Shown here: in pieces, positions 29,205-44,657 of the stretch
Position numbering within the stretch: position 1 is the stretch's first letter
Layout of the letters: the number at the start of each line of letters is the position of its first letter
Source: Hyphomonadaceae bacterium
Lineage (GTDB): Bacteria; Pseudomonadota; Alphaproteobacteria; Caulobacterales; Aquidulcibacteraceae
NCBI GenBank assembly: GCA_016791425.1
Contig: JAEUMQ010000007.1
Location: 1-64,000 of the forward strand
Length of the DNA: 64,000 nucleotides
Direction: 5' to 3'
Notes under the pieces: generated by a model
The model's input: only the letters and a program-made list of their open reading frames with translations
What the model was told of the DNA's origin: nothing
Databases searched by the model: none
Made by a program: the position numbers and the translations under genes

Positions 29205-30092
29205 ATGGACACGGAAACTCTGGACATTCGCCAGGTCGGCCCCACGTTCGCCGCCGAATTGCGCGGCCTCGACACCGCGAACGGCCTCTCCGCGCGAGAC
29301 GCCGCTGCGCTGGTCGGCGCCCTCGATCGCTTCGGCGTCGTTGTTCTGCCGAAACAGAGCCTGACGCCGCCCCAGCAGATCGCGCTCTGCGAAAGCCTCG
29401 GCCCGCTGGAGAATTCCGACGACGGCAGCCCCAGCTTCAAGGAACTTCGGCGCAACCTGCAATTCAAGGATCCCCGGCTCTCGGAGATTTCGAACCTCGC
29501 CCAGGGCGAAGGCATCCTCGACAAGGAGGACGTGCGCCGGCTTTTTCTCGTCGCCAACCAGCTCTGGCATTCCGACAGCACGTTCCGGCCGATCCGCGCC
29601 CGCTACACCTCGCTCACCGCGGTCAAGGTGCCCGCCTCGGGCGGCGACACCGAGTTCGCCGACGCCGCCAGCGCCTACGACGCCCTGTCCGCGGACGACA
29701 AGGCCGACATCGAGGGCCTCGTCGGCATCCACAGCCCGACCCACGTGATGGACGTGATGGGCGCCACCGGCCCGGACGGCGGCGGCTTCGTGAGCACGCT
29801 TACCCCGCAACGGCGCCCCATCGTCGAGGTGCATGCAGGTTCCGGCCGCAAGGTCCTGAACGTGCCGTCGCATTGCTCCCACATCGAGGGCATGTCCATT
29901 CCCGAGGGCCGCGCGCTGCTCACCTATCTGCGCGAGCAGGCGACGCTGCCTGCGTTCCGCTACCGGCACAAATGGTCGCCGGGCGATTTCGTCATCTGGG
30001 ACAATCGCTCCACGCTGCATCGCGCATGCCGATTCCAGGAGCGCAAAGAGGCGCGCCAGCTCGTCCGCTCGGTCGTGCAGGACGTCCATTGA
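29205..30092 (+). CDS. TfdA/TauD-family Fe(II)/2-oxoglutarate dioxygenase (A1)
   Basis: 295 residues. The facial triad is His122, Asp124 (ELWHSDSTF-type motif, here QLWHSDSTF) and His272 (RSTLHRACR); Arg284 or Arg288 would bind the 2-oxoglutarate carboxylate. Length and motifs are closest to TfdA-like aryloxyalkanoate dioxygenases, which cleave aryl ethers by hydroxylating the side chain. Its paralogue lies at 40841 with all motifs at the same residue numbers. A secreted SnoaL-like protein follows 20 bp downstream. Cytosolic; true substrate unknown. Confidence 0.88.
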   Translation: MDTETLDIRQVGPTFAAELRGLDTANGLSARDAAALVGALDRFGVVVLPKQSLTPPQQIALCESLGPLENSDDGSPSFKELRRNLQFKDPRLSEISNLAQGEGILDKEDVRRLFLVANQLWHSDSTFRPIRARYTSLTAVKVPASGGDTEFADAASAYDALSADDKADIEGLVGIHSPTHVMDVMGATGPDGGGFVSTLTPQRRPIVEVHAGSGRKVLNVPSHCSHIEGMSIPEGRALLTYLREQATLPAFRYRHKWSPGDFVIWDNRSTLHRACRFQERKEARQLVRSVVQDVH

Positions 30093-30112
30093 GCGAGGTG
30101 AGGAGAGGACAA

Positions 30113-30619
30113 ATGCGGATATCCATGCTCGCGGCAGCCCTGTGCGCGGGGCTGCTGATGGCGGCGACGTCCGCCGCTTTCGCACAGCCCGCGCAGATCA
30201 CGCAGCGGACTTTGCTCGACCGTATCCAGATCGAGGACCTGATCACCAGCTATTACAATGACGTCGAGGCCGGCGGCGCGAACGCCTATCCCAACTACTA
30301 CACCGACGACGCCGAGTTCGTGGTGAACGGGACGGTCTATCGCGGCCGCGACGCCATCGTCGCCTATCATCAGGCGCTCGCGGCGCGCAGCCCGACGCAC
30401 ATCGGCACGTTCCACATGGTCTTCAACAATCTGCAGGTCGAGGTCCGGGGCGCCGCCGCGACCGCGCGCTTGATCTGGTCCGGCATCCTCTCCGAGCGCG
30501 TCGAGGCGCCGGCCCGCATCCTCAAGCACGGCCGCGAGACCGATGAGCTTGTGAAGCGCGACGGCCAGTGGCGGATCAGCCGGCGCACCATCATCACCGA
30601 CGCCGGTTCCGCCTATTGA
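30113..30619 (+). CDS. Secreted SnoaL-like protein
   Basis: 168 residues from an ATG preceded by AGGAG. A signal peptide (about 1-24, ending AAFAQ) is followed by a SnoaL-like cone: RIQIEDLITSYYNDV, YYTDDAEFVVNGTVYRGRDA, HMVFNNLQVEV and DGQWRISRRTIITDAG. SnoaL_4-type domains include isomerases and small dehydratases of aromatic and polyketide metabolism. Export is unusual for those enzymes. It is cotranscribed with the preceding dioxygenase and overlaps the tail of the convergent MFS gene by 7 bp. Confidence 0.78.
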   Translation: MRISMLAAALCAGLLMAATSAAFAQPAQITQRTLLDRIQIEDLITSYYNDVEAGGANAYPNYYTDDAEFVVNGTVYRGRDAIVAYHQALAARSPTHIGTFHMVFNNLQVEVRGAAATARLIWSGILSERVEAPARILKHGRETDELVKRDGQWRISRRTIITDAGSAY

Positions 30620-31977
30620 GCGGAGGCGCCCGCGCGGACCTCGTCCACGCGCACGCCCTTGGTCTCCCTGGCCGCGAAGGCCCAGATCGCCGCGACGCCG
30701 AGGCCGAGCACGCCGAAGATGGCGAACACCGGCTGCACCGATCCCGTCGATGCGATGAGCCCGCCGACGAGCAGCGGCGTCAGCATCGAGGCGGTGCGCG
30801 CCGCCGCGCTGCAGAGCCCGAGCGCCATCGCCCGGATGCGTGTCGGAAAGGTCTCCGCCGAGAAGGGCCACAGGATGATGGTGCCGATCCCGATGCCGGT
30901 ATGCCCCAGCACGACCGCCGCGACGATGAGGCCGACTTCACCCTGCGGCATCGCAAGCAGGCTGAGCAGCACCGCGCCGCCGACCAGCGTGCCGAAGATG
31001 GCCAGCGGCCTGCGGCCCACCTTGTCCATCAGCGCCCCGAGCACGATCGGCGCAACGAGGATCACGATCACCGAGATGCTCGCGAAGCGCAAAGCTTCCG
31101 CCACCGGGATATGGAACACGCTGACATAGATCGACGGCGCCCAATTGGTCAGGCCGAAATTCACCAGCGACGTCAGGAACCAGAGCGCGACCAGCGTCGC
31201 CACCGTCCAGCGCACGTCGCGCGCGAAGAGATCGGCGAACCGCGTTCTCGCCGCCGCATTCGCCGCCGCCGGCGTCGCCGCAAGCGCCGCTTCAGCCGCG
31301 CCGCCGAGCTTCCTGATCGCCGCCAGCGCCGCGTCGGGACGCCCGATCCGCGCCAGCCAGCGCGGCGATTCCGGCAGCAGCGCCATCGCGAAGGGCAGCA
31401 CCAGCAGCGGCGCCGCGCCAAGCACGAACATCACCCGCCACCCGACCTGCTCGATGATGAGCGCGCTGGTGACCGCCGCGGCGGCGTAGCCGCTGACCAT
31501 CAGGAACTGGAAGACCGAGAAGAAGCGTCCGCGCGTCTTGGTGGGCGCAATCTCGTTGATGTAGCTCGCGCACACGGGCACGGCGCCGCCGATCGCAAGC
31601 CCCTGCACGAAGCGCAGCGCGCCGAGCTGCTCGGGCGTCTGCGCCGCCGCGCACGCCACGCTGAGCAGCGACATGACGACGATCGCTGCGCTGTAGACCG
31701 GCTTGCGCCCCCAGCGCTCGGCAAGCGCGCCGAGCGCGATCGCGCCCACCAGCTGCCCCGCATACCCGCTGGACATGAGCGCGCCCATCGCGATGGGCTC
31801 CAGGCCCCATTCCCGCGACAGCGTCGGCATGATGAAGGCGATCATCACGCTGTCCCAGGAATCGAACAGCATCAGCACGCCAAGGAGAACGGGCGCCAGC
31901 GCCCGCCGCCGCCATGCGCCCGGCGCATCCAGCATCGCGCCGATCTGAGCCTGCTGATCCTCGTGTGCGCCCGCCAT
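30613..31977 (-). CDS. MFS transporter, aromatic acid:H+ symporter-like
   Basis: 454 residues, 12 predicted membrane segments. Loop motifs: DSWDSVMIAFIMPTL in TM1, GALAERWGRKPVY between TM2 and TM3, PTKTRGRFFS, and a second-half GALMDKVGRRPLA. The TM1 Asp pair and overall pattern fit the AAHS/sugar-porter-like group that imports benzoate, 4-hydroxybenzoate and similar acids. It is the last gene of the eight-gene minus-strand operon. The ATG at 31977 is chosen because an upstream alternative would overlap the SDR gene; no strong Shine-Dalgarno sequence is seen. Confidence 0.85.
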   Translation of the reverse strand: MAGAHEDQQAQIGAMLDAPGAWRRRALAPVLLGVLMLFDSWDSVMIAFIMPTLSREWGLEPIAMGALMSSGYAGQLVGAIALGALAERWGRKPVYSAAIVVMSLLSVACAAAQTPEQLGALRFVQGLAIGGAVPVCASYINEIAPTKTRGRFFSVFQFLMVSGYAAAAVTSALIIEQVGWRVMFVLGAAPLLVLPFAMALLPESPRWLARIGRPDAALAAIRKLGGAAEAALAATPAAANAAARTRFADLFARDVRWTVATLVALWFLTSLVNFGLTNWAPSIYVSVFHIPVAEALRFASISVIVILVAPIVLGALMDKVGRRPLAIFGTLVGGAVLLSLLAMPQGEVGLIVAAVVLGHTGIGIGTIILWPFSAETFPTRIRAMALGLCSAAARTASMLTPLLVGGLIASTGSVQPVFAIFGVLGLGVAAIWAFAARETKGVRVDEVRAGASAQ

Positions 31978-31993
31978 CGCCCGCCCCCGTCGC

Positions 31994-32752
31994 TCAGAAC
32001 GCGAACTTGTGGCTCCCGCCATCGACGGAGATCACCTCGCCCGTGATGTAGCGCGCTCGCGGCGAGACGAGGAAGGCCACGAGCACGGCCAGGTCTTCCG
32101 GCTGGCCGAAATAGCCGACCGGTATGTTCTTGCGGCAATAGTCCTCGCGCGCTTCCATCGTCGGGAAGATCTTGTCGATCTGCTCGCTGATGATGACCCC
32201 CGGCCCGATCGTGTTGACGGTCACCCCGTCCTTCGCGACCTCGTGCGACAGGCTCTTGGAATAGACCGTGCGCGCCGCGTTCATGACGCTGGCCGAATTG
32301 ATGATCGCCTGCACCTCGAACGTGCCGCCGATATTGATGATCCGGCCGTACTTGCGCTGCCGCATTCCGGGCAGCAGCGCTTCGGCCAGATGCCGCGGCG
32401 CAACCACGCGCAGCGCATAGGCGTGCTGCCAGCGCGCTTCATCGCCGCCGATGCCCATCACGTCGGACGTGCCGGCATTGTTGATCAGGATATCGACCTC
32501 GCCGAGCTTCGCGATCGCTTCCGCCGCGATGGCCTTGCCCGCATCGGGCGCGGTGAGATCATGCACGATGATCGCCGGCCGCTGCTTGCCGGACGCCGCC
32601 AGCTTGTCGGCCGCCGCCTCAAGCACGTCGGCGCGCCGCCCCAGCAGCGCCAGGCGCACGCCTTCGCCCGCCAGCGCCTGCGCGATGCCGAACCCGATCC
32701 CGGTTCCCCCGCCCGTGATCAGGGCGCCCTTGCCTTCAAGCTGCAGATCCAT
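31994..32752 (-). CDS. SDR-family protein lacking the YxxxK dyad
   Basis: 252 residues, classical SDR size. The NAD(P)-binding TGGGTGIG (14-21), NNAG, and C-terminal ITGEVISVDGG are all normal. The active site is not: the Ser position reads IGG and the Tyr-x-x-x-Lys segment reads ASVMN (followed by AARTVYSKSL), confirmed from the codons. Either it uses other residues or it does not catalyse a standard dehydrogenation. It lies between the TauD-family gene B1 (32 bp) and the MFS gene (16 bp), so it belongs to the operon. Confidence 0.87.
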   Translation of the reverse strand: MDLQLEGKGALITGGGTGIGFGIAQALAGEGVRLALLGRRADVLEAAADKLAASGKQRPAIIVHDLTAPDAGKAIAAEAIAKLGEVDILINNAGTSDVMGIGGDEARWQHAYALRVVAPRHLAEALLPGMRQRKYGRIINIGGTFEVQAIINSASVMNAARTVYSKSLSHEVAKDGVTVNTIGPGVIISEQIDKIFPTMEAREDYCRKNIPVGYFGQPEDLAVLVAFLVSPRARYITGEVISVDGGSHKFAF

Positions 32753-32784
32753 GCGCGTTCATTCCATTTTCAGACGCGTGACGT

Positions 32785-33798
32785 TCAGGCGCGCGCCACG
32801 TCCTCAAAGCCGCGACGCGTGAACCGCGCGATCGACTCCGGAGGCTTCGCCTCGGCGAGATTCAGCCACAAGCGCAACAGAAGCCGCCAGCGGCCCGGAT
32901 CGTCGTAATCATCGTAGGCCGTGCGGGCGTGCAGCACCGCGTAATTGTTGACCAGCTGAATGTCGCCCGCCTGCAGCTCCATGTCCAACCGGAACTCGGG
33001 CGCCAGGATGAGCTCGTCCATCAGCGCCAGCGCCTCCTCCTCCTCCCGGCTCGGCGCGACGCCCTTCTTCTTGAAGGTCGCGTCGATGCCCCGCCGTCCG
33101 TAGAAGCAGGTGAGCCGCCCCTCTTCATGGGCGAAGATCGGCACGCGGTAGGGCGTGGTGCTGGAAGGATCGGCGCCCTCGCCGCGATAGTCGCGATAGA
33201 ACCCGCGATACATGATCGGGAGAAGATCGGGTCGGCGCGCAAGAAAGGCGTTGTACGCCGCCGCCATGTTCACGATCGAGCTCGCGCCGCCGGACTTGGC
33301 TTTCCGGATGCACAAGAGGCCAACCATGTCGGCGAGATCATTGTGCGGCTCCTGGTGGCGGCGATCCTGATAGCCCCGCACGTTGGGATTGCTCGGGTCG
33401 AGATCATGGAACGTCACATGCGTGAGCAGATCGCCGTGCGCGTTCTGCCCCAGACCCGCCCCCAGATAAGATCCGATCCCCCAATAGACGAGCTCGAGGT
33501 CCTGGACGCTGAGGCCTTCGACCTTGACGCCGCGCAACAGCGCGAACCGCTTGCCATCGACCACGTCGCTGCGGATCGCCGCAAGCTTCGGCGCAAGGCG
33601 CGGCAACGCGAACTCGCGGGGTCCGAATTCGCCAAGCCGCAGGCCCCGCCCTTTCACGTCCTCCAGCGCCCGGTCGAGCTCTTCCTGCTCTGCGCTTTCC
33701 AGCCGCCACACCCAGTCCTTTTCCGCCAAGTCGCCCGCAGTCCACAGCGCCGGCCCTCGGACGGGTTCCCGCTTGATTGCGTCAGTCGCGTCGATCAT
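32785..33798 (-). CDS. TauD-family Fe(II)/2-oxoglutarate dioxygenase (B1)
   Basis: 337 residues from the ATG at 33798; two upstream ATGs in frame exist and none has a good Shine-Dalgarno sequence, so the start is uncertain. The iron triad is His152 and Asp154 (EPHNDLADMVG) plus His290 (NNYAVLHARTAYDD), with Arg305/Arg309 for 2-oxoglutarate. The fold is the TauD/gamma-butyrobetaine-hydroxylase type with a long N-terminal region. Its close paralogue is at 38550 in the same operon (shared YWGIG/FWGIG, GQNA, GYQDRR, SGGASSIVN, CFYGRRGID). Substrate unknown. Confidence 0.86.
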   Translation of the reverse strand: MIDATDAIKREPVRGPALWTAGDLAEKDWVWRLESAEQEELDRALEDVKGRGLRLGEFGPREFALPRLAPKLAAIRSDVVDGKRFALLRGVKVEGLSVQDLELVYWGIGSYLGAGLGQNAHGDLLTHVTFHDLDPSNPNVRGYQDRRHQEPHNDLADMVGLLCIRKAKSGGASSIVNMAAAYNAFLARRPDLLPIMYRGFYRDYRGEGADPSSTTPYRVPIFAHEEGRLTCFYGRRGIDATFKKKGVAPSREEEEALALMDELILAPEFRLDMELQAGDIQLVNNYAVLHARTAYDDYDDPGRWRLLLRLWLNLAEAKPPESIARFTRRGFEDVARA

Positions 33799-33916
33799 GG
33801 AGCTGGAGTTTCTTTCCCTGGCGGACATCGGCCGCAGCGGATCGCGCATAGCACGTCGGCGCGAATGCGGAGGGATAGCCATTCGTGAAGGGGCTATCGT
33901 TCGGGGCGATGGTGAT

Positions 33917-34690
33917 TCACGCGGCCTCCAGCAGGCGGGCGAGCTCCGCCGGCTTGTCGATCATCACGTCGTGCCCGCAGCCCCGAATGTCATGCACGCG
34001 CCAGCTCGGATCCTGGCGCAGCGGCGCGCACACCGCGTCGGAGAACGGCGAGGGAAAATCGATCGGTCGGATATAAGTCTTCCGGGCGACGCGGTCATAG
34101 GCGTTCGTGTGTGTGAGCTTCTGCGAGAAACTCGCGGCCGATTGCGGCGTGAACTGCGCATCGACCCAGGCGCGGTCCGCGAGGTTCACCATCGTCGCCT
34201 CGGCCGAGAAGATCGGCGCGACCGGATCGGCGCCGCCGCCGCTCACGAAGCCGACCATGTCGTTTAGCGATTGCCCGCTCTGCGGCAGGAACGCGTCGAG
34301 ATAGACGATGGAGGCGATCCGCTCCGGCGCGCGCTCCACGACGCCCGTGATCACCATGCCGCCGTACGAATGCCCCACGAGCGTGACGCCCTGCAGGTCT
34401 TTCCAGCGAAGCTCGCCCGTGACATCCGCAATGTGGGTGTCGAGATTGATCGCCGGCGAGATGAGATGCGATCGCTCTCCGAGCCCGGTCAGCGTCGGCG
34501 CGTAGACGCGGTGGCCGCGCGCCTGCAGCCGCGCCGCGACGCGCTCCCAGCACCAGCCGCCGTGCCAGGCGCCGTGCACCAGCACGAAGGTGAGGTTTCG
34601 GCGGCGCGGCGCGGCGTGCGCGGCGCCGACACTGGCCGCCGCCGCCCCAGCCGCAAGAACGCCGAGCGCGCGACGCGTCAACCTGCCCAT
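33917..34690 (-). CDS. Tat-exported alpha/beta hydrolase
   Basis: 257 residues from an ATG preceded by GAGGGAGGT. The N-terminus LTRRALGVLAAGAAAASVGA looks like a twin-arginine signal peptide, cleaved near AHA. The core has VHGAWHGGWCWERV (oxyanion hole), the nucleophile elbow GHSYGG, an Asp in YLDAFLPQSG and the catalytic His in GCGHDVM. The pattern is that of the hydroxynitrile-lyase / methyl-esterase / pyrethroid-hydrolase group. A periplasmic esterase releasing an acid for import is plausible. It starts 2 bp after the aminotransferase stop codon. Confidence 0.85.
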   Translation of the reverse strand: MGRLTRRALGVLAAGAAAASVGAAHAAPRRRNLTFVLVHGAWHGGWCWERVAARLQARGHRVYAPTLTGLGERSHLISPAINLDTHIADVTGELRWKDLQGVTLVGHSYGGMVITGVVERAPERIASIVYLDAFLPQSGQSLNDMVGFVSGGGADPVAPIFSAEATMVNLADRAWVDAQFTPQSAASFSQKLTHTNAYDRVARKTYIRPIDFPSPFSDAVCAPLRQDPSWRVHDIRGCGHDVMIDKPAELARLLEAA

Positions 34691-34692
34691 GC

Positions 34693-35886
34693 TCACCTCC
34701 CTCCGCCCATCGCCGCCGCGAGCGCGTCCACCACGTATTGCGCGCGCTCCGGATGCAGCGCGGCGAGGTTCACCCGCCCGCTCTCCGGCATGTAGATGGC
34801 CCGATCCGCGCGAAGCGCGCGCACCTGCTCCGGCGTCAGCGGCAGGAGGCTGAACATGCCGCGATGGTCGCGCACGGGCGCAAGCGGCAGGCCAGCGCGC
34901 TCCGCGCGCGCGGCGAAATCGGCGCGTATGGCGTTCAAACGCAGACGCATGGCGTCCAGCTCGCGAAGCCAGCTTGCGCGCAGATCCTCGCGCTCCAGCA
35001 CCAGCCGCACGATCGCCGCGCCGTGATCGGGCGGAACCGAATAGAGCGTGCGTGCGATCGCGGTCGCGTTGGTCATCGCCACATTCGTGACTTCGGCGGT
35101 GCGCCCGAGGATGAAGAGCGCGCCGACGCGCTCGCGATAAAGCCCGAAGGATTTTGAGCCCGACACCGCCACCAGCGCATCCGGCGCCGCCTCCAGCATC
35201 AGGCGCAGGCCCGCCGCATCCGCATCGATGCCATCGCCAAGCCCCAGATAGGCCGCATCGACAAAAGGCACGAGCCCTCTTGCCGAGACGATGCCCGCCA
35301 GCTCGCGCCATTGCGCCGGGGAAGAATCCGCGCCGGTCGGATTGTGGCAGCTCGCATGCACAAGAAACGGCGTGCCGCTCGGCGCGCTCTTCAGCGCATC
35401 GACCGTGGCGTCGAAATCCACCGCCTGGCGCCGCGGGTCGAAATACTCCACCCAGCGCACCTGCGCGCCGCCGGCCATCATGATCGTGTCGTGGATCGCC
35501 CAGGTCGGGCGCCCGAGCACGATCGGCGGCGCGCCCGCACGCGCGATGAGCTCCGCGCCGAGCCGCAGCGCCGCGACGCCGCCGGCCGCCTGCAATCCGC
35601 GCACGCGTCCGCCCAGCGTCCTGCAGAGGCCCTCGCCGAGCACCAGCTGCACGATCAGCTCCGTGCTCCGCACGTCGCCGAACGAGCCGAGATACACCTT
35701 CGACTCCTGCGTCTCGAGCAGCTCTCGCTCGGCCGCCTTCACCGCCGCCATGATCGGCGTGCGGCCGCTCTCATCGATATAGACGCCCACCCCGAGATCG
35801 ACTTTCTCCGCGCGCGCATCGGCGCGCACGATATCGACCAGCGAGAGAATGGGATCGATGGGCTGCGGCTGAAGCTTTTCCAGCAT
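34693..35886 (-). CDS. Aromatic/aspartate-type class I aminotransferase
   Basis: 397 residues, the length of AspC/TyrB. PLP residues are visible: Asn182 in CHNPTG, Asp210 in FVDAAYLGLGDG, the Schiff-base Lys245 in SGSKSFGLYRERVGA, and the C-terminal substrate Arg in PESGRVNLAAL. TyrB-type enzymes interconvert aromatic amino acids and 2-oxo acids. Its place 4 bp after an MIO-type ammonia-lyase gene suggests two ways of removing nitrogen from the same class of substrate, or sequential work on different isomers. Confidence 0.9.
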   Translation of the reverse strand: MLEKLQPQPIDPILSLVDIVRADARAEKVDLGVGVYIDESGRTPIMAAVKAAERELLETQESKVYLGSFGDVRSTELIVQLVLGEGLCRTLGGRVRGLQAAGGVAALRLGAELIARAGAPPIVLGRPTWAIHDTIMMAGGAQVRWVEYFDPRRQAVDFDATVDALKSAPSGTPFLVHASCHNPTGADSSPAQWRELAGIVSARGLVPFVDAAYLGLGDGIDADAAGLRLMLEAAPDALVAVSGSKSFGLYRERVGALFILGRTAEVTNVAMTNATAIARTLYSVPPDHGAAIVRLVLEREDLRASWLRELDAMRLRLNAIRADFAARAERAGLPLAPVRDHRGMFSLLPLTPEQVRALRADRAIYMPESGRVNLAALHPERAQYVVDALAAAMGGGR

Positions 35887-35890
35887 CGGA

Positions 35891-37540
35891 TCAGCGGCCC
35901 TCCGCGGCGAAGGCCCGCACCGCGCCGCGCAGCGGCTCGATCGATGTGAGGATCGCGCCGCGGCTGCGGATATCGGAGAGGATGCCTTCCACCTTCGGCT
36001 GGATGAAGCCGTCGGTGTCGTCCCAGATCACCGGCCGGTCGCCCGCGCGTGGGCCGACGGCGGCGGTGCGCGTCGCTTGATAGAGCCCCCGCGTCTGCGC
36101 CGACAGAAGCGGGCTTGGATCGTGCGTGTCGGCCACGGCCTTCGCGCGCAGCTCCGCGCCCTGGATCGCAAAGAGCAGCGCATTGGCCATGAAATGCTCG
36201 CACGCCTCCACCGAGTCGCGCGCGATGTTCGCCGAATTCATCGCCTGGCTGTTGATGTTCTGGTTGTATTGCTCCGCATGCGTTGGATACCGGTCGGCCA
36301 TCGAGCCGCCATAGAACCCGACGAGCGGCGCAAGCGCGTTGCAGCCGACCTGCAGGGACTTGAGGCCGATATTGAGGCCATGGTCGGGATTGCCGACCAG
36401 CGACGGCGGCAGGCCGTGATTGAATTCCGGCGACACCAGCATCGCGATCTGCACGTCGAGGTGCTTCACCAGCATTCCGAGATGATAGCGCAGCTGATCC
36501 ATCGCCACGGCGGTGTATTGCGCGAGGAAATTGCCGGTGTGGTAGACTTCGCCCGTGTCCGGATCGTTGAGCGGATTGTCGTTGGCCGAATTGGCCTCCA
36601 CCTCGACCTGCCGCGCCGACATGGCGATGCCGTCGATGATCGGCCCCATATATTGCGGCAGGCACCGGAGCGCGTAGCGATCCTGCACCAGCGCGCCCGC
36701 GCGGTGCCCCCGATCGCCGGCGGCCTCGGACCGGATGAGCTTCGATCCCGCGATCAGCCCGCGCATCTGCGCCGCGATCCAGATCTGCCCCGGATGCGGC
36801 TTCCAGCGATGGATGATCTCGTCGAAGGATTGGCTGGTCGCGAGCAGCGTCTGGGCGAAGAGCGCATGCAGCGCCAGCCCGAGCGCGAACACGTCATAGG
36901 CGCGCGCCATGGCGTTCGCGGCCACTGCGGTGGAGGCGGCCGTGCCGTTGTTGAGCGCGAGGCCCTCCTTCGGCTCCAGTTCGAGCGGCTTCAGGCCGAG
37001 CTTCTTGAGCGCGCTCACGCAATCAAGCGTCTCGCCCTTGTAATCGACGAGGAAAGCCGGATCGAGCCCGACGATCGAGGCGCCGATATACGAAAGCTGT
37101 CCCAGGTCGCCGCTCGCGCCGATCGAGCCGCGCTGATAGACGTGCGGCGATGCGCCTTGGTTGAGGAACGTCGCCAGGCGCTCGATGAGCTCCACGCGCA
37201 CCGAAGACGCGCCCTTCAGCAGCGTGTTGGCGCGGAGCAGCATCGCGGCGCGCACTTCCTCTTCCGTGAGCCGCGGCCCGGTCGCGGCCTTGTGGTGCCA
37301 GAGCGCGATCCGCTGCAGCTCGCGCATCCGCTCCGGCGGAACGCGCCTGTCCGCCATAGCGCCGTAGAGCGTGGTGACGCCGTAGACCTGCTGCCCGGCC
37401 GCGATGGCGTCGGCCATCTTCTGGCGCGACCGCTCGACTCGATCGAGCACCGCGCGGTCCTTGGTGATCTCGACCTTGGCGCCGCGCGCAACCGCGGCGA
37501 TGTCGTCGATGCTCAAGCCTTCTCCGCTGATCGTCACCAT
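35891..37540 (-). CDS. MIO-dependent aromatic amino acid ammonia-lyase/aminomutase family protein
   Basis: 549 residues from the ATG preceded by GGAG. The MIO cofactor tripeptide is Ala142-Ser143-Gly144 in GSIGASGDLGQLSY; Tyr53 (VYGVTTLYG) and the family segments NNGT, QDRYALRC and SANDNPL are present. The selectivity positions read His82-His83 (IALWHHKAA): His83 is the histidine-lyase residue, while His82 matches the position used by tyrosine lyase. The histidine-lyase QEDHVSM segment is replaced by INSQAMNSAN, closer to phenylalanine/tyrosine lyases and aminomutases. No hutU or hutI is nearby, so histidine use is unlikely; substrate unresolved. Confidence 0.88.
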   Translation of the reverse strand: MVTISGEGLSIDDIAAVARGAKVEITKDRAVLDRVERSRQKMADAIAAGQQVYGVTTLYGAMADRRVPPERMRELQRIALWHHKAATGPRLTEEEVRAAMLLRANTLLKGASSVRVELIERLATFLNQGASPHVYQRGSIGASGDLGQLSYIGASIVGLDPAFLVDYKGETLDCVSALKKLGLKPLELEPKEGLALNNGTAASTAVAANAMARAYDVFALGLALHALFAQTLLATSQSFDEIIHRWKPHPGQIWIAAQMRGLIAGSKLIRSEAAGDRGHRAGALVQDRYALRCLPQYMGPIIDGIAMSARQVEVEANSANDNPLNDPDTGEVYHTGNFLAQYTAVAMDQLRYHLGMLVKHLDVQIAMLVSPEFNHGLPPSLVGNPDHGLNIGLKSLQVGCNALAPLVGFYGGSMADRYPTHAEQYNQNINSQAMNSANIARDSVEACEHFMANALLFAIQGAELRAKAVADTHDPSPLLSAQTRGLYQATRTAAVGPRAGDRPVIWDDTDGFIQPKVEGILSDIRSRGAILTSIEPLRGAVRAFAAEGR

Positions 37541-37618
37541 GCGAGGTCTCCTCAAATCGCGGGCCGGCGACGATCGCATATGCGCACAAAGCGCGCGCCT
37601 CGTCCCCCGGCGTTCAAA

Positions 37619-38518
37619 TCAATATCCGCCTGCGCCTGGCTGGCGGGCGTCCGGATCGCCGGCCGCTTCGGATCGGATCGGGTTGACCAGCTCTCCGATG
37701 CCGGAAATCCGGCTCGTGAGGATGTCTCCCGCCTGCAGTGCGCGCCTGCGCCCCGTCGGCCGCGGCGACCCGCAAAGGATGACGTCCCCTGCTTCGAGGC
37801 CGAACGCGTCGCTCGCTTCCGACACCAGCTCCGCGACGGAGTGGATCATGAGCCGCGCCGAGGCCTCCGCCTCGATCTCGCCGTTCACCAGCTGCTGCAG
37901 ATGCATATCGGCGGGATCGATTTCGTCCTTGGTCACGATCCACGGCCCGAGCGGACAGAAGCTCGGAAAGCCCTTGCCGCGCGCCGCCTGCAGGAAAAGC
38001 GGATTGCGCGCGCTTTCTCCCAGCAGGATCTCGGGCGCGGTTACATCGTTCGCGATCGTGTAGCCGAACACATGGTCCATGGCAGCGGCCGGACCGACGC
38101 GCCGTCCCGCTTTGCCGATGATGACGGCGATCTCCACTTCGCCGACCACGCTCCTCGCCTCGCGCGGCGCCACGATCGCGTCGCCCGGACCAATGAGGCT
38201 GGAGCTCGGCTTCAGGAAGAAGATCGGCGCGGGGGGAAGGTCGGGCGCGGCGCCGTCCGCAGAGCGGAAATTGCTCCCCACGCCGATGATCTTGCCCGGC
38301 CGCAGGAGCGGGGCCGCGAGGCGCGCGTCCTCGAGCCGCACGCGCGCCAGCCCATCCAATCCATGCGCCGTGAGCCGCCCTTCGATGGCCGGCCATGCCG
38401 CGATCAAGCCGCCCACGTCGCGCGCGCCGTCTGCGAACGTCGCGAGGGACAGCGCCTCGCCGCCGCGAACGAGGCCCGGCGCTTCCCGCCCCGGCGCGCC
38501 AATCGCTGCGAGCTTCAA
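37619..38518 (-). CDS. Fumarylacetoacetate hydrolase (FAH) family protein
   Basis: 299 residues from a TTG at 38518 (reads MKLAAIGAPG), which has GGAG 7 nt upstream and gives the family's usual N-terminus. An ATG 78 bp earlier would overlap the upstream gene. Metal ligands are in GEVEIAVIIGK (two Glu) and YTIANDVTA (Asp). The usual TGTPxGVG signature is altered to CGSPRPTGRR. FAH-family enzymes hydrolyse or decarboxylate 2,4-dioxo acids at the end of aromatic pathways. Located 31 bp after TauD-family gene B2 and 78 bp before the MIO lyase gene. Confidence 0.85.
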   Translation of the reverse strand: MKLAAIGAPGREAPGLVRGGEALSLATFADGARDVGGLIAAWPAIEGRLTAHGLDGLARVRLEDARLAAPLLRPGKIIGVGSNFRSADGAAPDLPPAPIFFLKPSSSLIGPGDAIVAPREARSVVGEVEIAVIIGKAGRRVGPAAAMDHVFGYTIANDVTAPEILLGESARNPLFLQAARGKGFPSFCPLGPWIVTKDEIDPADMHLQQLVNGEIEAEASARLMIHSVAELVSEASDAFGLEAGDVILCGSPRPTGRRRALQAGDILTSRISGIGELVNPIRSEAAGDPDARQPGAGGY

Positions 38519-38549
38519 GCCTGCGCTCCGAGGATTGGATGATGCTTTC

Positions 38550-39581
38550 TCAACGCGCCCTGCTGCCCTCGGCCTGCGCCGTCGCGACATCCGCAAAGCC
38601 CGCGCGCGTAAACCGCGCCAGCCGCGGCGGCAATTCGAGATCCGGCAGATTGAGCCACAGGCGCAGCATCAGGCGCCAGAGCTTCGGGTCCTCGTGATCC
38701 TCGTACGCCGTCCGCGCATGCAGCACCGAATAATTGTTGATGAGCTGGATATCGCCGGTCTCAAGCTGCATGTCGAGCCGCAGGTTCTCCTGCGCGACAA
38801 GCTCGTCAAGCAGCGCGAACAGGTCCTTCTCTTCCGCGCTGGGCGTCTCGCCACGCTTCTTCATCGCCACATCGATGCCGCGCCGGCCATAGAAGCAGCT
38901 GAGTTTGCCGTCGGAATAGCTGAAGATGGGGATGCGGTAGGAGGTGGTCGCGTTCGGATCGGCGCCTTCCCCGCGATAATCCAGATAGAAACCACGATAG
39001 CAGAGCGGCAGCAGGTCCGGACGCCGCCGCAGCAATTCGTTGTAGAGCGCGTACGAATTGACGATCGAGCTCGCTCCGCCGGACCGCGCCTTCCGCACGC
39101 ACATCAGCCCCACCACGTCCGCCAGGTCGTTGTGCGGCCCCTGCTCGCGCCGATCCTGGTAGCCGCGCACGCGCGGATCGTTCGGGTCGAGATTGTGATG
39201 CGTCACATGGGTGAGCAGCGCGCCTTGCGCATTCTGCCCGAGCCCGACGCCGAGATGCGCCCCGATGCCCCAGAACAGGAGCTCGATTTGCCGCAGATCG
39301 TACCGCTCGAGCTCCACCTTGCGCAGAAGCGCGAAGCGAACGCCTCCGGTGAGCGCCTTGCGGATGGCCGCCAGCTTGCGGCCGAACACCGGGAGCGGGA
39401 AATCCGCCTTGCCGAACGCGCCGACGCCGAGGCGCCGCGCCTCGACGCCGCGGAGCGCCGCGTCAAGGTCGGCCGCCTCATCGGGCGTGATCCGCCAAAC
39501 CCAGTCGCTGGCTTGGAGGTCGTCGCGCATCCAGACCGCCGGGCCCGTGACCGGAGCGTCCAGGATCACCTCTTCCGGCAT
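38550..39581 (-). CDS. TauD-family Fe(II)/2-oxoglutarate dioxygenase (B2)
   Basis: 343 residues from the ATG at 39581; an earlier TTG adds seven residues. Iron ligands His150, Asp152 (GPHNDLADVVG) and His288 (NNYSVLHARTAYED). Clear paralogue of the protein at 32785, with the same block order, and both in one operon. It is the first gene of the eight-gene minus-strand operon, which diverges from the LysR gene. Retained paralogues suggest different regio- or substrate preference. Confidence 0.86.
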   Translation of the reverse strand: MPEEVILDAPVTGPAVWMRDDLQASDWVWRITPDEAADLDAALRGVEARRLGVGAFGKADFPLPVFGRKLAAIRKALTGGVRFALLRKVELERYDLRQIELLFWGIGAHLGVGLGQNAQGALLTHVTHHNLDPNDPRVRGYQDRREQGPHNDLADVVGLMCVRKARSGGASSIVNSYALYNELLRRRPDLLPLCYRGFYLDYRGEGADPNATTSYRIPIFSYSDGKLSCFYGRRGIDVAMKKRGETPSAEEKDLFALLDELVAQENLRLDMQLETGDIQLINNYSVLHARTAYEDHEDPKLWRLMLRLWLNLPDLELPPRLARFTRAGFADVATAQAEGSRAR

Positions 39582-39763
39582 TCTCCGCGCAGCTCCGCCC
39601 AATCCCAGCTAGGCATGCCATGCGGCCGGCAGGGCGCGGAAATAGCGTTTCAACCGGGGGATATAGTCACCCGCGATAGCCTTCTGCCTGTTGGCAATCG
39701 CAGTGCGGGCTGGCACCTTGACGCGACGGACAGCCTGCCTGGGATTTCGGCCTCCATCTTCAC
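39582..39763. other. Divergent promoter region, B2 operon / LysR
   Basis: 182 bp between the divergent dioxygenase B2 and lysR genes, the likely control point of the locus. It holds an imperfect 19-bp dyad with CGGG/CCCG arms (around 39655-39675) and the small palindrome GGCATGCC (39612-39619). LysR proteins usually bind such intergenic regions through T-N11-A sites. I cannot assign the exact site. Confidence 0.35.
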
Positions 39764-40804
39764 ATGGACCTTCGCACCAACATCGACCTGAAGCAGCTCC
39801 GCTACTTTGTTGCGGTGGTGGACGCCGGCAGCATCAGCCGCGCCTCCAAGCTGCACCACATCGCCCAGCCGGCGCTGTCCAAGCGCATCGGGCAGCTCGA
39901 ATACGATCTTGGCGCCCCGCTGCTGCATCGCGGCCATACTGGCGTTCAGCCCACGGAGCAGGGCTGGATGCTCTATCGCGCCGCGCAGCGTGTGTTGCGC
40001 GACATGGCCTCGGTGGTCGAGGCCGTGCACGCCGCCGAATCCGATCCGGTCGGCGATGTGCGGATCGGATGTCTGCAGAGCCTCACCGCGCTGGTCGGCG
40101 CTCCCCTGGCGGTGCGCGTCATCGAGGAATTTCCCCGCGTGCGGCTTTCCGTGCTCGGCGGCCAGAGCCTGGAGATCTACCGGGCGCTGGTCGATGGCCT
40201 CCTCGATGTCGCCCTCTGCGTGTGGGACGAAGAGGCGCCCCACCTGGAGGTCGAGCTGCAGATCCAGGAGGAGTTCTTCCTCGCCGCCTCGCCCGATATG
40301 CCCGGCCTGCCCAAGGAGGCGGTGATCGATCCCAAGCGCCTCAAGCGTTTCCCGTTCGTCTTCCCGACGGCGCGGACCTACGCCAGCGGGCCGGTGATCG
40401 TCGGCCAGCTGCAGGAGATGGGGATCGAGCTCAACGTCATCGCCGAGATCGACGGCGACGGCATCAAGTCGCTCATCGCCGGCGGCCATGGCTGCTGCAT
40501 CCTCACCCTGTCGACGATCCAATCCGAGGTCGCCGCCGGGCGCATCGTGCTCAAGCGCCTCCGCAACACCCCGATCTGGCGCACGCTCGCGCTCTGCACC
40601 GCCAAGGACCGGCCCCTCTCGCTCGCCGCCCGCGCCGTGACCCAGCAGATGAAGAAGGTCATCGAGGATCAGATCAGGACGGGCGCCTGGCGCAACGTCC
40701 AGATCGCCGCCGGGCGGCCAAACTTATCGACGGACGGCATACCCGTATCGCCAACGGGTATTACCCCCGCCTCCGCGACAATGGGACAAGCACGGCGGGA
40801 CTGA
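39764..40804 (+). CDS. LysR-family transcriptional regulator
   Basis: 346 residues. Winged helix at the N-terminus: LKQLRYFVAVVDAGSISRAS, KLHHIAQPALSKRIGQLE. The effector domain follows (about 100-300; VRIGCLQSLTALVGAPLAVR, GRIVLKRLRNTPIWRTLAL). The C-terminal tail after about residue 315 is longer than in typical LysR proteins and may be disordered. It is transcribed away from the eight-gene operon and towards dioxygenase A2, so it probably regulates both arms, with an aromatic or carboxylate effector. Confidence 0.92.
   Translation: MDLRTNIDLKQLRYFVAVVDAGSISRASKLHHIAQPALSKRIGQLEYDLGAPLLHRGHTGVQPTEQGWMLYRAAQRVLRDMASVVEAVHAAESDPVGDVRIGCLQSLTALVGAPLAVRVIEEFPRVRLSVLGGQSLEIYRALVDGLLDVALCVWDEEAPHLEVELQIQEEFFLAASPDMPGLPKEAVIDPKRLKRFPFVFPTARTYASGPVIVGQLQEMGIELNVIAEIDGDGIKSLIAGGHGCCILTLSTIQSEVAAGRIVLKRLRNTPIWRTLALCTAKDRPLSLAARAVTQQMKKVIEDQIRTGAWRNVQIAAGRPNLSTDGIPVSPTGITPASATMGQARRD
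40739..40761. promoter_or_regulatory. Perfect 7-bp inverted repeat before dioxygenase A2
   Basis: ATACCCG (40739-40745) and CGGGTAT (40755-40761) flank a 9-bp centre inside the last codons of the LysR gene, about 80 bp upstream of the next start codon. It could be an operator or an RNA hairpin. Its ATACC/GGTAT core resembles the ATACCGG of the repeats at 29079-29125, upstream of paralogue A1. Confidence 0.4.
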
Positions 40805-40840: not shown

Positions 40841-41725
40841 ATGGCAATTCGAACGCTCGGCATCCGACAATTGGCGCCAACCTTCGCGGCCGAGATCAGC
40901 CGGCTGAATCTCGCGCTTCCGCTTGCGCCCCGGGACCTCACGGCCGTCGTCGAAGCGCTCGACCGGTATGGCGTCGCGGTCTTTCCCGGACAGAACCTGA
41001 CGATGCAGCAGCAGATCGCCTTCAGCGAGCTGCTCGGTCCGCTGGAGAATTCCGACGAAGGCAGCCCGACCTACCAGGAATTCCGCCGCGAGCACGAATT
41101 CGCCGACGGCCGGGTCTCGGAAGTGTCCAATCTTGTCCGCGGCGGCGACCTGCTCGAGCTGGCCGACATGCGCCGCCTCTACCAGTTCGCGAACGAGCTC
41201 TGGCACTCCGACAGCACCTTCCGCCCGGTCCGCGCGCGCTACACCATTCTCTCGGCCGTCAAAGTGCCCGCCTCGGGCGGCGACACCGAGTTCGCGGACG
41301 TCGTCGGCGCCTATGACGCGCTGCCGGCGGACATCAAGGAGGACATCGAAAGCCTCGTCGGCGTCCACAGTCCAACCGCGGTGATGGAGACGCTCGGCGC
41401 CCTGCAGGCCGACGGCGGCGGATTCCAATCGACCTACGGCCTTCAACGCCGGCCGCTCGTCGAAACCCATCCCGGCTCCGGGCGCCGCTTCCTCTCCGTC
41501 CCGTCGCACTGCTCGCACATCGAAGGAATGTCGCTGCCGGAAGGTCGCTCGCTCCTCTTCTATCTGCGCGAGCACGCCACCCAGCCGCGCTTCCGCTATC
41601 GTCATGCCTGGACGCCGGGCGACCTGGTGGTCTGGGACGATCGCTCGACCCTTCATCGCGCGTGCCGATACAAAGAGCGCAACGAACCGCGCCAACTTGT
41701 AAGAACAGTCGTGCAGGACCGCTGA
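40841..41725 (+). CDS. TfdA/TauD-family Fe(II)/2-oxoglutarate dioxygenase (A2)
   Basis: 294 residues. Triad His122, Asp124 (ELWHSDSTFRP) and His272 (RSTLHRACR), the same positions as in A1 at 29205. Shared blocks include KVPASGGDTEFAD, PSHCSHIEGMS and GPLENSD. TfdA-like enzymes oxidise the side chain of aryloxy acids to release a phenol; whether this one does so is an inference from family resemblance. It is followed by the MmgE/PrpD gene (25 bp) and probably by a transporter in one transcript. Confidence 0.88.
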   Translation: MAIRTLGIRQLAPTFAAEISRLNLALPLAPRDLTAVVEALDRYGVAVFPGQNLTMQQQIAFSELLGPLENSDEGSPTYQEFRREHEFADGRVSEVSNLVRGGDLLELADMRRLYQFANELWHSDSTFRPVRARYTILSAVKVPASGGDTEFADVVGAYDALPADIKEDIESLVGVHSPTAVMETLGALQADGGGFQSTYGLQRRPLVETHPGSGRRFLSVPSHCSHIEGMSLPEGRSLLFYLREHATQPRFRYRHAWTPGDLVVWDDRSTLHRACRYKERNEPRQLVRTVVQDR

Positions 41726-41750
41726 GAACGGCGCACTGCGGAGGAAACGC

Positions 41751-43301
41751 ATGATCGGTCGACGGGCATTTCTGAGCGGCTCGGCGCTTCTGGGCCCGGC
41801 GCTGCTCGCGCAATCCGCAGCGGCGCAAACCGTGACGCCGACGGCGGCGCCGGCCGCTGCGCCAGCAAGGCCCCGCTTCTCCTATGTGGAAACCCGCGGC
41901 GCCCCGAGCCCGGCGATGCCGCTCGAAACCCGCGCCTTCGCCGCGCACGCAGTGAAAGTGCAATTCGCCGACCTCGACGAAGCGACCCGCAAGAAAGCCA
42001 AGCGCAGGATCCTCGATCTCTTCGGTTGCGCGCTCGGCGGCGTCCACGCCTCCGGCAATGCCGCGCTCGTGCGCATGCTGCAGGCGCAGCGCGGACCGCA
42101 GGAAGCGTCCGTCATCGGCTATCGCGCCAGGCTGCCCGCCGCCGAAGCGGCGATGGCCAACGCCATCATCTCGCGCTCCTACGATTACGAAGTGATGACC
42201 GTCGTCGTCGGCGACCGGCTCATCGGCTCGCACAATTCCCCGACCACCTGCTTCACCGCGCTCGCCCTCGCGGAACGCGCGCGCCTTTCCGGCGCCGACT
42301 TCCTCACCGCGCTCGTTGTCGGCGACGACATCGCCGCGCGCATGCTCGCCGCATCCGGGCTCGATCTCGGCATGGGCTGGGACGCCTCCTCCGTGTTCAC
42401 CGCGATCGCCGCCGCCGCCATCGGCGCGCGCCTTGTCGGCGCCACAGAGGAGCAGGCGCAAGACGCGCTCGGGCTTGCGGTCGATATGGTGTGCGGCACG
42501 ACCCAAAGCGTCTGGGACGGCGCGCCCGGCTGGAAATTCGTCGGCGGCGCCTCCGCGCGCAACGGAATCTTCGCCGCGCAGCTCGCCAAGACCGGAGAAT
42601 GGCCCGGCATCCGCGACGCCCTGCGCGCCCCTTACGCGCTCTACGGACAATTCACGCCCGGTCTCGTCGATCCACCCGCGCTCATCGCCGATCTCGGCGC
42701 CAAGTTCTACGGGGAGGAATATTTCAAGCCGTATCCGTCCTGCGCCGCCACGCACATGATGCACGAATGCGCCTTCCAGCTGCGCGAGGCGCATCATCCT
42801 GCCCCGGAGGATATTCGCAGCGTCGAGGTGCGCATCCCCGGCTTCGTCCTCTCCACCGCGCTCGCGCAGGCCTTCGAGCCCGGCCGCGATCCGCACACCG
42901 TGGCGAACTTCAATATCCGCTATCAATCCGCCACCGGCCTGCTGCGCGGCCCGATCCGCCTCGAGCATTACGCGCCCGAGGCGATCAACGCGCCGGAGAT
43001 CGCCGCGCTCATCGGCAAGCTCAAGCTCGCCGCCCTGCGCGAGGGCGAAACCGGAATCGTGATCGACGTCGCGATGCGCGACGGACGCGTGCTCACCCAG
43101 CGCCATTCCGGCACGCCGATGCGCAATCCCGCCATCCGCGCCAGCACCGACGCGGAGATTCTCGAGAAGTTCATGGGCCAGGCCGCGTTTTCAAACGCCG
43201 TCACGCCGCAGACCGCGCGTCAGATCGCCGAACGCATCGACTCCATCGAGCGCGAGCGCGACATCCGCAGCCTCGTCAGCCTCATGCGCGGGCGGGCCTA
43301 G
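41751..43301 (+). CDS. MmgE/PrpD-family protein with Tat-like signal
   Basis: 516 residues, preceded by GGAGG. The N-terminus MIGRRAFLSGSALLGPALLA then SAAAQ is a clear Tat-type signal peptide, followed by a Pro/Ala linker. The body has MmgE/PrpD features: KKAKRRILDLFGCALGG, ANAIISRSYDYEVM, GDDIAARMLAASG, KPYPSCAATHMMHECA. Known relatives (2-methylcitrate dehydratase, cis-aconitate decarboxylase, iminodisuccinate epimerase) work in the cytosol. A periplasmic member suggests dehydration, decarboxylation or isomerisation of a carboxylate outside the cytosol. Confidence 0.86.
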   Translation: MIGRRAFLSGSALLGPALLAQSAAAQTVTPTAAPAAAPARPRFSYVETRGAPSPAMPLETRAFAAHAVKVQFADLDEATRKKAKRRILDLFGCALGGVHASGNAALVRMLQAQRGPQEASVIGYRARLPAAEAAMANAIISRSYDYEVMTVVVGDRLIGSHNSPTTCFTALALAERARLSGADFLTALVVGDDIAARMLAASGLDLGMGWDASSVFTAIAAAAIGARLVGATEEQAQDALGLAVDMVCGTTQSVWDGAPGWKFVGGASARNGIFAAQLAKTGEWPGIRDALRAPYALYGQFTPGLVDPPALIADLGAKFYGEEYFKPYPSCAATHMMHECAFQLREAHHPAPEDIRSVEVRIPGFVLSTALAQAFEPGRDPHTVANFNIRYQSATGLLRGPIRLEHYAPEAINAPEIAALIGKLKLAALREGETGIVIDVAMRDGRVLTQRHSGTPMRNPAIRASTDAEILEKFMGQAAFSNAVTPQTARQIAERIDSIERERDIRSLVSLMRGRA

Positions 43302-43304
43302 AGG

Positions 43305-44657
43305 ATGGAGACGGCGTCTGCATCGGCGAACGCCGCCGCGCCCGGCGAGGCGGCGACCGAGGAGGTGACGCCGCTCAACCGCGTCGTCGCCGGCGCCGCG
43401 GCGGGCACGGTGATCGAGTATTATGATTTCGGCATCTATGCGGTTCTCGCCGTCGCGCTCGGCCACGCCTTTTTCCCCCCGGACGATCCCAGCCTCGGCG
43501 TCCTGCTCGCGGTCGCTTCCACCGGCGTCGCGTTCGTCGTGCGCCCGCTCGGCGGCATGCTCTTCGGCATGATGAGCGACCGGATCGGCCGCAAGTTCAC
43601 CTTCATGACGACGCTCTTCGTGATGAGCGGCGCCACCATCCTGATGGGCCTGACGCCGAACTACGCCACGATCGGCGTCGCCGCGCCGATCATCATCGTC
43701 GGCCTCAGAGTGCTCCAGGGGCTTGCGGTCGGCGGCGAGTACGCGGCCGCATCGACTTACGTCATCGAGCATTCGCCCGATCACAAGCGCGGCTACTACA
43801 CCGGCTGGCTCGGCGGCATGACCGGCGGCTCGCTCGTGCTCGCGCTGCTGGCGGTGGTCGCCACGCAACGTTCGCTCCCCCCGGAAGCCTTCCAGGCCTG
43901 GGGCTGGAGGTTTCCCTTCCTCTACGCGGCGGGGCTCCTGCTCATCGCGCTCTATATCCGCACGCGGCTGCGCGAATCCCCGGTCTTCCGGCGCCTCGCA
44001 GCGAGCGGGCGGCTCGCCAAGACGCCGCTTCGCGACGTCCTCGCCGATCCCAAGGCGCTCGGCCGCATCATGGCCGTGGCGTTCGGCGTGTGCACGCCGC
44101 AGATCACCTCCGGCCTCATCGGGTCGATGCTGGCGCTCTACTACATGCAGACGAGCGGCGGCGTGGAGCCGAGCCACGCCACGCTCCTGCTGGCGGTCGG
44201 TTGCCTCGCGGCGATGCCGATGACCATTCTCGCCGGCGCGCTGTCGGACAAGCTCGGCCGCAAGCCGGTGCAGATCACCGGCATGGCGCTGGGCGCAATC
44301 GGGTTCATCCCGCTCTTCCACTATCTGCCGGCGGCGGCGGCATCTTCATCCGCTCTCGCCTATGTGCTGATCATCCTGCTCCAGGTTCCCTCATCCCTGG
44401 TGGTGGGCCCCGCCTTCGCGACCATCACGGAATCCTTTCCCGCCGCGCAGCGCACCACCTCGGCCGCGATCGCCTTCTCCACCGGCGGCGTGATCGGCGG
44501 CTTCTCGCCGGCCGTCGCGCTCTGGCTCGCCAAGACGTATGGCGACATCAATTGGGGCCTCGCCTACGCGATCGCCGTCCTGACGGCCGGCATGGTGATC
44601 AATCTCCTGTGGGTGCGCGAAAGCAGCCGCATCCAATTGAGCGCCGACGCATCCTGA
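43305..44657 (+). CDS. MFS transporter, metabolite:H+ symporter (MHS)-like
   Basis: 450 residues with 12 membrane segments. MHS-type signatures: GTVIEYYDFGIYAVLA in TM1, RPLGGMLFGMMSDRIGRK after TM2, GLAVGGEYAAASTYV in TM4, GALSDKLGRKPVQ in the second half. MHS proteins import organic acids such as 2-oxoglutarate, citrate or shikimate. It starts 3 bp after the MmgE/PrpD stop, so both are co-translated and the transporter may import that enzyme's product. Confidence 0.9.
   Translation: METASASANAAAPGEAATEEVTPLNRVVAGAAAGTVIEYYDFGIYAVLAVALGHAFFPPDDPSLGVLLAVASTGVAFVVRPLGGMLFGMMSDRIGRKFTFMTTLFVMSGATILMGLTPNYATIGVAAPIIIVGLRVLQGLAVGGEYAAASTYVIEHSPDHKRGYYTGWLGGMTGGSLVLALLAVVATQRSLPPEAFQAWGWRFPFLYAAGLLLIALYIRTRLRESPVFRRLAASGRLAKTPLRDVLADPKALGRIMAVAFGVCTPQITSGLIGSMLALYYMQTSGGVEPSHATLLLAVGCLAAMPMTILAGALSDKLGRKPVQITGMALGAIGFIPLFHYLPAAAASSSALAYVLIILLQVPSSLVVGPAFATITESFPAAQRTTSAAIAFSTGGVIGGFSPAVALWLAKTYGDINWGLAYAIAVLTAGMVINLLWVRESSRIQLSADAS

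Follow-up and report, generated by a model that had tools for sequence, protein, structure and literature searches.

In a 64,000-nucleotide stretch of a Hyphomonadaceae bacterium genome (GenBank assembly GCA_016791425.1, contig JAEUMQ010000007.1, positions 1 to 64,000; hereafter the window), we analysed a locus in which four 2-oxoglutarate dioxygenases (A1, A2, B1 and B2), a methylidene-imidazolone (MIO) lyase and an aromatic aminotransferase (AAT) are encoded around one LysR-type regulator. As judged by sequence comparison, the conserved unit is one LysR-associated catabolic island spanning positions 23778–44657, not the eight-gene minus-strand operon around which a preliminary description of this DNA had been built. 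The island may serve to take up a plant-type aromatic conjugate and convert it through an arylpyruvate and a tyrosine-like intermediate to p-hydroxycinnamate, a reading of the gene content that we place slightly short of probable.

Four genomes from two orders were found to carry the island: the window genome, the metagenome-assembled genome (MAG) 8_bin.23, Marinicaulis flavus (now named Hyphococcus luteus, Parvularculaceae, by NCBI) and the Novosphingobium MAG BIN27. Among 398 sampled genomes of the window's order, the MIO lyase was found in three (E 1e-80) and a B2 query recovered the same three (E 1e-60). The chance of drawing the same three is ~1e-7 if the genomes are independent, a figure that is weaker in truth because two of them share a genus. 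A class-wide search for the lyase at E 1e-120 returned only the window genome among 385 sampled genomes. Scanning genome contigs with a three-sequence MIO alignment yielded 10 loci, and nine of their genomes (that of locus L020 was left out) were searched for the B-type dioxygenase (E 1e-25) and for the MmgE/PrpD-family protein of the island (PrpD; E 1e-40). Both were present in the Novosphingobium MAG, MAG 8_bin.23 and M. flavus, which are the genomes with an AAT-linked lyase, and both were absent from the other six. At the loci of these six, no island gene was found near the lyase except a remote gene (29%) of the fumarylacetoacetate hydrolase (FAH) family, and the PutA-like aldehyde dehydrogenase stretches there (31–47%) do not belong to the island. 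Of the 14 gene families counted, M. flavus held all 14, the Novosphingobium MAG 13, spread over two contigs that may or may not adjoin, and MAG 8_bin.23 11 on three short contigs, where A and two further families (SnoaL and MFS1, described below) were not seen.

Further searches gave the same picture of an island that is rare in the samples covered. In the order of the Novosphingobium MAG, a B1 query at E 1e-60 had matches in 2 of 386 sampled genomes, namely in this MAG (72%) and in the genome G1131 (40%); the latter was rejected as an island member, its neighbouring genes looking unrelated by eye. A plasmid search detected no match for the lyase or PrpD at E 1e-60 and 17 records with relatives of B, all below 60% identity, while no relative was confirmed by a genome-contig scan with B2 alone. 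The earlier claim of one conserved unit is thus borne out by recurrence in four genomes of two orders and by the matched presence of the lyase and B; homologues scattered without a shared neighbourhood, which the preliminary description had named as the outcome speaking against a single pathway, are not what the synteny test returned.

The island was placed at 23778–44657 because the three genes at its left end recur elsewhere with the rest, while the flanking genes LigB, YdbH, RNase D and PutA had no matches at E 1e-8 in the eight compared stretches. Its G+C content was 0.677 against 0.685 for the remaining window. The LigB-type gene, which encodes a ring-opening dioxygenase, lies at 18210–19040, left of the island. 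All of the genes named in the preliminary description were found where it had put them, with minor corrections to the SnoaL gene and the hydrolase start (see below), but its left bound fell short of 23778, so that a TonB receptor and an alcohol dehydrogenase were missed. Pfam and NCBIfam models confirmed the families it had proposed: TauD/TfdA four times, the major facilitator superfamily (MFS) twice, and short-chain dehydrogenase/reductase (SDR), alpha/beta hydrolase, aminotransferase, Lyase_aromatic, FAA_hydrolase, LysR, MmgE/PrpD and SnoaL_4 once each. A PADLOC search returned no matches for the two proteins tested.

The left arm, transcribed away from A1 on the minus strand, encodes a TonB-dependent receptor for outer-membrane uptake (TBDR; 23778–26315; PF00593/PF07715), a YciI-like protein of 99 aa (26331–26630) and a pyrroloquinoline quinone-dependent type II quinohaemoprotein alcohol dehydrogenase with a cytochrome c domain (PQQ-ADH; 26724–28802). 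The YciI-like protein has no Pfam match of its own and was assigned by homology to the protein adjoining PQQ-ADH at locus L013 of the MAG (70% identity over 90 aa); the M. flavus homologue falls just under the YCII cut-off. A1 (29205–30092) and a SnoaL_4-like protein with a signal-peptide-like N-terminus by eye (30113–30619, as corrected; PF13577, 66.9 bits) follow on the plus strand. The minus-strand series then runs from 39602 down to 30613 and comprises B2 (38550–39602), an FAH-family protein of uncertain start (37619–38596; FAA_hydrolase match), the MIO lyase (35891–37579), AAT (34693–35886), an esterase-like alpha/beta hydrolase, assigned by family match, with a Tat-type leader by eye (33917–34690, the upper bound being the corrected start), B1, whose true start may be internal (32785–33882), the SDR oxidoreductase (31994–32752; family match) and MFS1, a carrier of the aromatic-acid:H+ symporter type scoring under the TIGR00895 cut-off (30613–32022). 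Since the gaps between the longest reading frames are only −47, 39, 4, 2, 34, 32 and −29 bp, a single operon is plausible here, with some starts uncertain. Diverging from this series on the plus strand are the LysR-type regulator (39764–40804), A2 (40841–41725), PrpD (41751–43301; family match) and MFS2, a carrier of the metabolite:H+ symporter type matching its family model under the cut-off (43305–44657).

The gene order in the other genomes indicates which parts of this layout are local. In M. flavus, TBDR, YciI and PQQ-ADH (minus strand) are followed by A, a beta-propeller-like protein and SnoaL (plus), MFS1, SDR and B (minus), LysR, MFS2 and a carboxylesterase (plus), FAH (minus), PrpD (plus), a further TBDR with AAT and MIO (minus), and an Lrp-type regulator. 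Contig C8 of the Novosphingobium MAG carries the series YciI and PQQ-ADH (minus), A, the beta-propeller-like protein and SnoaL (plus), MFS1, SDR and B (minus), LysR, MFS2 and carboxylesterase (plus), FAH (minus) and PrpD (plus). Its MIO-AAT pair lies on a separate contig that also encodes a second FAH-family protein, a further esterase and a member of the tannase family, and no overlap was found between the two contig ends tested. Outside the window the genes are therefore arranged in the sub-operons MIO-AAT, B-SDR-MFS, LysR-MFS2-esterase and FAH/PrpD. In the window, FAH, MIO, AAT, the Tat-type hydrolase and B2 are inserted between LysR and the B1-SDR-MFS1 unit, so that the block B2-FAH-MIO-AAT-hydrolase-B1-SDR-MFS, proposed earlier for a synteny search, is by this comparison a local arrangement seen only in the window genome. 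Two of its members are not conserved: B2 is a paralogue found only in the window, the orthologue of the single B gene elsewhere being B1, and an unrelated carboxylesterase stands in the place of the Tat hydrolase. Identities to the window proteins, with partial genes included, were 74–78% for SDR, 70–73% for PQQ-ADH, 71–76% for A, 69–72% for B, 69% for MFS1 and 62–64% for MIO, and lower for PrpD (53–57%), MFS2 (56%), LysR (47–49%, encoded beside B), FAH (46–50%), AAT (41–47%) and SnoaL (41–50%). Homologues of PQQ-ADH were found in all three other genomes and those of SnoaL and MFS1 in two each. TBDR homologues of 25–36% occur at the M. flavus and MAG 8_bin.23 loci, and none was found in the Novosphingobium stretches.

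The chemical core of the island would be formed by the lyase and AAT. The lyase (PF00221, 454.6 bits) has the MIO-forming Ala-Ser-Gly within the motif GSIGASGD, and its nearest solved relatives, over the full length, are the cyanobacterial phenylalanine ammonia-lyases (PALs) AvPAL (2nyn) and NpPAL (2nyf). Tyr66 aligns with the catalytic-loop Tyr78 of AvPAL, whose role is described in the accessible part of PMC5651878. By a hand count on the alignment, the pocket differs from that of AvPAL by L104A, F107H, L108H and M222N. The resulting His-His pair was present in all 11 sequences read (window plus 10 relatives), a count partly selected by the retrieval, in which one scan pattern held ALWHH and frames with LWHHK were picked; the lyases of L017 and L019 have Ser in place of both Ala and Asn. 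The accessible part of PMC5651878 gives the selectivity motifs as FL for PALs and YH for tyrosine ammonia-lyases (TALs), with FH as a possible intermediate, does not name HH, and ties His at motif position 7 to the strict TAL activity of BagA. We took this TAL-linked residue to correspond to the second His of the pair, and because His at the selectivity positions matches the TAL-linked motif, a tyrosine-like substrate is our best guess for the lyase, a predicted TAL. His-His lyases without island genes were also observed at L015 and L016 (Pararhodobacter, a MAG), which share the same neighbours ~8–12 kb into the locus, including a gene resembling porphobilinogen synthase by eye.

AAT is of the TyrB type and matched the aromatic amino acid transaminase model PRK09257 with 430 bits (cut-off 377). 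It adjoins the lyase in all four genomes, with a gap of 4 bp in the window and also in L024 (Novosphingobium) if a GTG start is taken there, and with an overlap of 4 bp in L012 and L013. We read this contact as pointing to consecutive steps from an arylpyruvate to an aryl-alanine and on to an arylacrylate.

The four 2-oxoglutarate dioxygenases of the preliminary description are all present, but they divide into TfdA-like A1 and A2, 67% identical to each other, and a separate clade near FrbJ made up of B1 and B2 (61% identical). Both A1 and A2 match PF02668, and the nearest solved chain of A1 is the TfdA relative 5bke, which we take to be AAD-12 (287 residues aligned, E 1.5e-51). M. flavus and Novosphingobium each have one A gene, and A1 is its orthologue. 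A1 resembles TfdA and the aryloxyalkanoate dioxygenases in that their HxD motif and distal His are retained (by eye), and differs from TfdA in its setting, lying with AAT, MIO and PQQ-ADH rather than within a chlorophenol pathway. TfdA cleaves aryloxyacetates to a phenol and glyoxylate; from a substituted acid, a different 2-oxo acid would result. The nearest solved chain of B2 is FrbJ (5eqn; 310 residues aligned, E 2.3e-46), an enzyme of phosphonate antibiotic synthesis; no phosphonate gene was recognised in the island. The window genome (4.36 Mb) has 13 TauD-family matches, which makes TauD genes in general no rarity there, and the B type was found at 2 places.

A recurrent operator-like palindrome fits LysR control of the island. 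The B/LysR gap of Novosphingobium contains the perfect palindrome CTATCGC-N5-GCGATAG, and each of the four genomes has a site upstream of B that agrees with it at 12 or more of 14 positions; the window site precedes B1 (CTATCGT-N5-GCGATGG, 12/14, at 33894–33912). A palindrome scan found a weaker site (11/14) at 39661–39679 in the B2/LysR gap. The 305 kb background of 16 other loci held no site at 12/14 and 21 at 11/14. The palindrome was first spotted by eye and was defined on a single member of the four genomes counted, two of which are close relatives; across the whole window, sites with up to three mismatches numbered 7 against 7.0 by chance. Sites of 12/14 were also found between the tannase and esterase genes of L024 and, in L029, within a coding gene. 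These counts support, but do not prove, a shared LysR operator. Scans of other kinds found no sigma-70 promoter, fewer terminators than expected by chance and no T-N11-A box in 12 intergenic pieces.

From this gene content we assembled the following candidate pathway. A conjugate with a 4-hydroxyphenyl-C3 (tyrosine-skeleton) unit would enter through the TonB receptor and would be cut and oxidised in the periplasm by the esterase, PQQ-ADH and SnoaL protein, in the window perhaps also by PrpD, whose gene there has a good ribosome-binding site ahead of the Tat-type leader (by eye), while the three homologues start without a leader. The two MFS carriers would then bring the resulting acids into the cytosol. 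The A oxygenase would act on the aromatic acid, ether cleavage beside the carboxylate freeing a 2-oxo acid; it is put before AAT on the reasoning of TfdA chemistry. B would hydroxylate an intermediate whose product SDR would oxidise, an order suggested by the fact that SDR immediately follows B in each of the four genomes. FAH and PrpD, the latter no more than a remote relative of IDS epimerase and cis-aconitate decarboxylase, might process a dicarboxylate or oxo-acid fragment. AAT would aminate the arylpyruvate with glutamate, regenerating 2-oxoglutarate for the oxygenases, and the TAL-like lyase would release ammonia and p-hydroxycinnamate. Three parts of the earlier interpretation fit this gene content: uptake into the cell, a predicted hydrolysis in the periplasm and the chemistry of aromatic amino acids.

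Beyond the island, protocatechuate could be formed from p-hydroxycinnamate by hydroxycinnamoyl-CoA hydratase-lyase (HCHL), an aldehyde dehydrogenase and PobA, for which M. flavus and MAG 8_bin.23 have genes. None of these genes belongs to the window island; in M. flavus two of them are close to the island, PobA at 5.4 kb and an HCHL homologue at 9.1 kb from the lyase on its contig. MAG 8_bin.23 carries a row of a partial aldehyde dehydrogenase, HCHL (457.8 bits; NCBIfam cut-off 276), a CoA ligase and PobA on a contig that is not linked to the island. HCHL identity is at least 70% in these two genomes and in the Novosphingobium MAG, whose island contig ends in a 44-residue PobA fragment also present on a second contig. 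PobA fragments were observed on contigs C8, C9, C11 and C12 of that MAG, several at contig ends, which suggests that two similar pobA copies broke the assembly. The window genome has a PobA just under the cut-off (534.3 against 538.7) on another contig.

Several observations weigh against the candidate pathway. The window genome has no clear HCHL orthologue (best 29%), so that p-hydroxycinnamate would need another exit there, and because HCHL occurs in several copies per genome (four in M. flavus and three in MAG 8_bin.23, at 88% identity or more), its nearness to the island is weaker evidence. The substrates of A and B are guesses from remote relatives. In the window, in M. flavus and in Novosphingobium alike, the gap between PQQ-ADH and A has no palindrome of at least 11/14, and with two of the four island genomes belonging to one genus, the independent events are few. 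The FAH-family protein and its homologues lack His-x-x-Glu at the aligned place (4/4, by eye). An SDR + FAH module is used in the 2,4-dioxo-acid (L-rhamnonate-type) pathway, and the island likewise holds an SDR and an FAH-family protein, whose best NCBIfam model is 2,4-didehydro-3-deoxy-L-rhamnonate hydrolase (145 bits; cut-off 500). The protein keeps an acidic pattern, presumably a metal site, but differs from that module in lacking the His-Glu pair of FAHD1. The dyad of FAHD1 is His30-Glu33 according to the accessible part of PMC8398924, and because it is missing in all four homologues we do not call the protein a hydrolase. It may not finish ring cleavage, as had been supposed earlier, there being no ring-cleaving dioxygenase among the identified island genes. 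Finally, the two 4-hydroxyphenylpyruvate dioxygenases (HPPDs) of the window genome fit an exit of tyrosine through 4-hydroxyphenylpyruvate.

This last point also fits a different scheme, in which the conjugate yields tyrosine itself and AAT (through 4-hydroxyphenylpyruvate to homogentisate) and MIO (to p-coumarate) are parallel outlets. By eye, one of the HPPD genes (contigs C9 and C15) is followed by a gene for a VOC-like protein, which might replace homogentisate dioxygenase in the window genome, and the other lies near FAH-like and MarR-like genes. The island contig of Novosphingobium holds MaiA above its NCBIfam cut-off, and a FAH with a fumarylacetoacetase N-terminal domain, without an NCBIfam match at 1e-10, adjoins its MIO-AAT pair. 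Moreover, M. flavus and MAG 8_bin.23 encode an Lrp-type regulator beside the lyase, and the Novosphingobium island contig has a more distantly related one (33%) close to its end. However, a cluster of HPPD, HmgA and FAH was not found in the window genome, where the HPPDs lie on other contigs; HmgA had no match there or in the Novosphingobium MAG and only weak matches under the cut-off in the other two. HPPD was not found in the Novosphingobium MAG or MAG 8_bin.23, a weak absence because both are MAGs, and two competing outlets in so tightly coupled a gene pair would be uneconomical. We regard parallel outlets as possible but rather unlikely.

A biosynthetic cluster, in which the lyase, oxygenases and aminotransferase would build a specialised metabolite, is brought to mind by the relation of B to the biosynthetic FrbJ and by weak NCBIfam matches of A to biosynthetic PtlD and ScoE, far under the cut-off; TALs, too, often feed specialised metabolism. 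Yet the identified island genes include no synthetase, carrier protein, ligase or acyltransferase and instead encode a TonB receptor, an esterase and PQQ-ADH, with p-hydroxycinnamate degradation genes nearby in M. flavus, which makes biosynthesis improbable. That two or more unrelated operons lie side by side by accident is more improbable still, since the presence of the genes is patchy but matched, their content is common to two orders and MIO-AAT and FAH, though relocated in the window, stay with the same genes, even if the sub-operon layout differs between genomes and the eight-gene arrangement belongs to the window genome alone.

Within the catabolic reading that leads to p-hydroxycinnamate, a more specific and quite speculative version would have the TfdA-type oxygenase split a natural 2-aryloxy-3-arylpropanoate, either a neolignan of the 8-O-4' type or a related acid from plants, into a phenol and an arylpyruvate, with AAT recycling 2-oxoglutarate while making the aryl-alanine and the His-His TAL yielding a hydroxycinnamate. 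As substrates we considered rosmarinic acid (which joins caffeate and dihydroxyphenyllactate in an ester), eucomate/piscidate, homotyrosine and 8-O-4'-diferulate, and we claim none of them; a literature search linking rosmarinic acid with Novosphingobium found nothing. The six gene words searched in each did not occur in the accessible parts of the pinoresinol and beta-5 dimer catabolism papers PMC12607616 and PMC11323797.

In sum, the preliminary interpretation is supported in part, holding for the conserved unit and import but not for the exact block or the role of FAH. As it had anticipated, no described cluster with this gene set was found in the literature searched, a search that most subscription journals lay beyond. 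The enzyme families are known and their combination is new as far as that literature shows, without amounting to a new kind of system. The conserved unit of about 14 genes offers a testable order of steps. Among its enzymes may be a catabolic tyrosine ammonia-lyase that has an unusual pocket and would be of use in making or degrading hydroxylated amino acids, and the unit may reveal a natural job of TfdA-like dioxygenases; if the 2-aryloxy-3-arylpropanoate version is true, the island would provide both a natural role for TfdA-like enzymes and a purely catabolic bacterial TAL.

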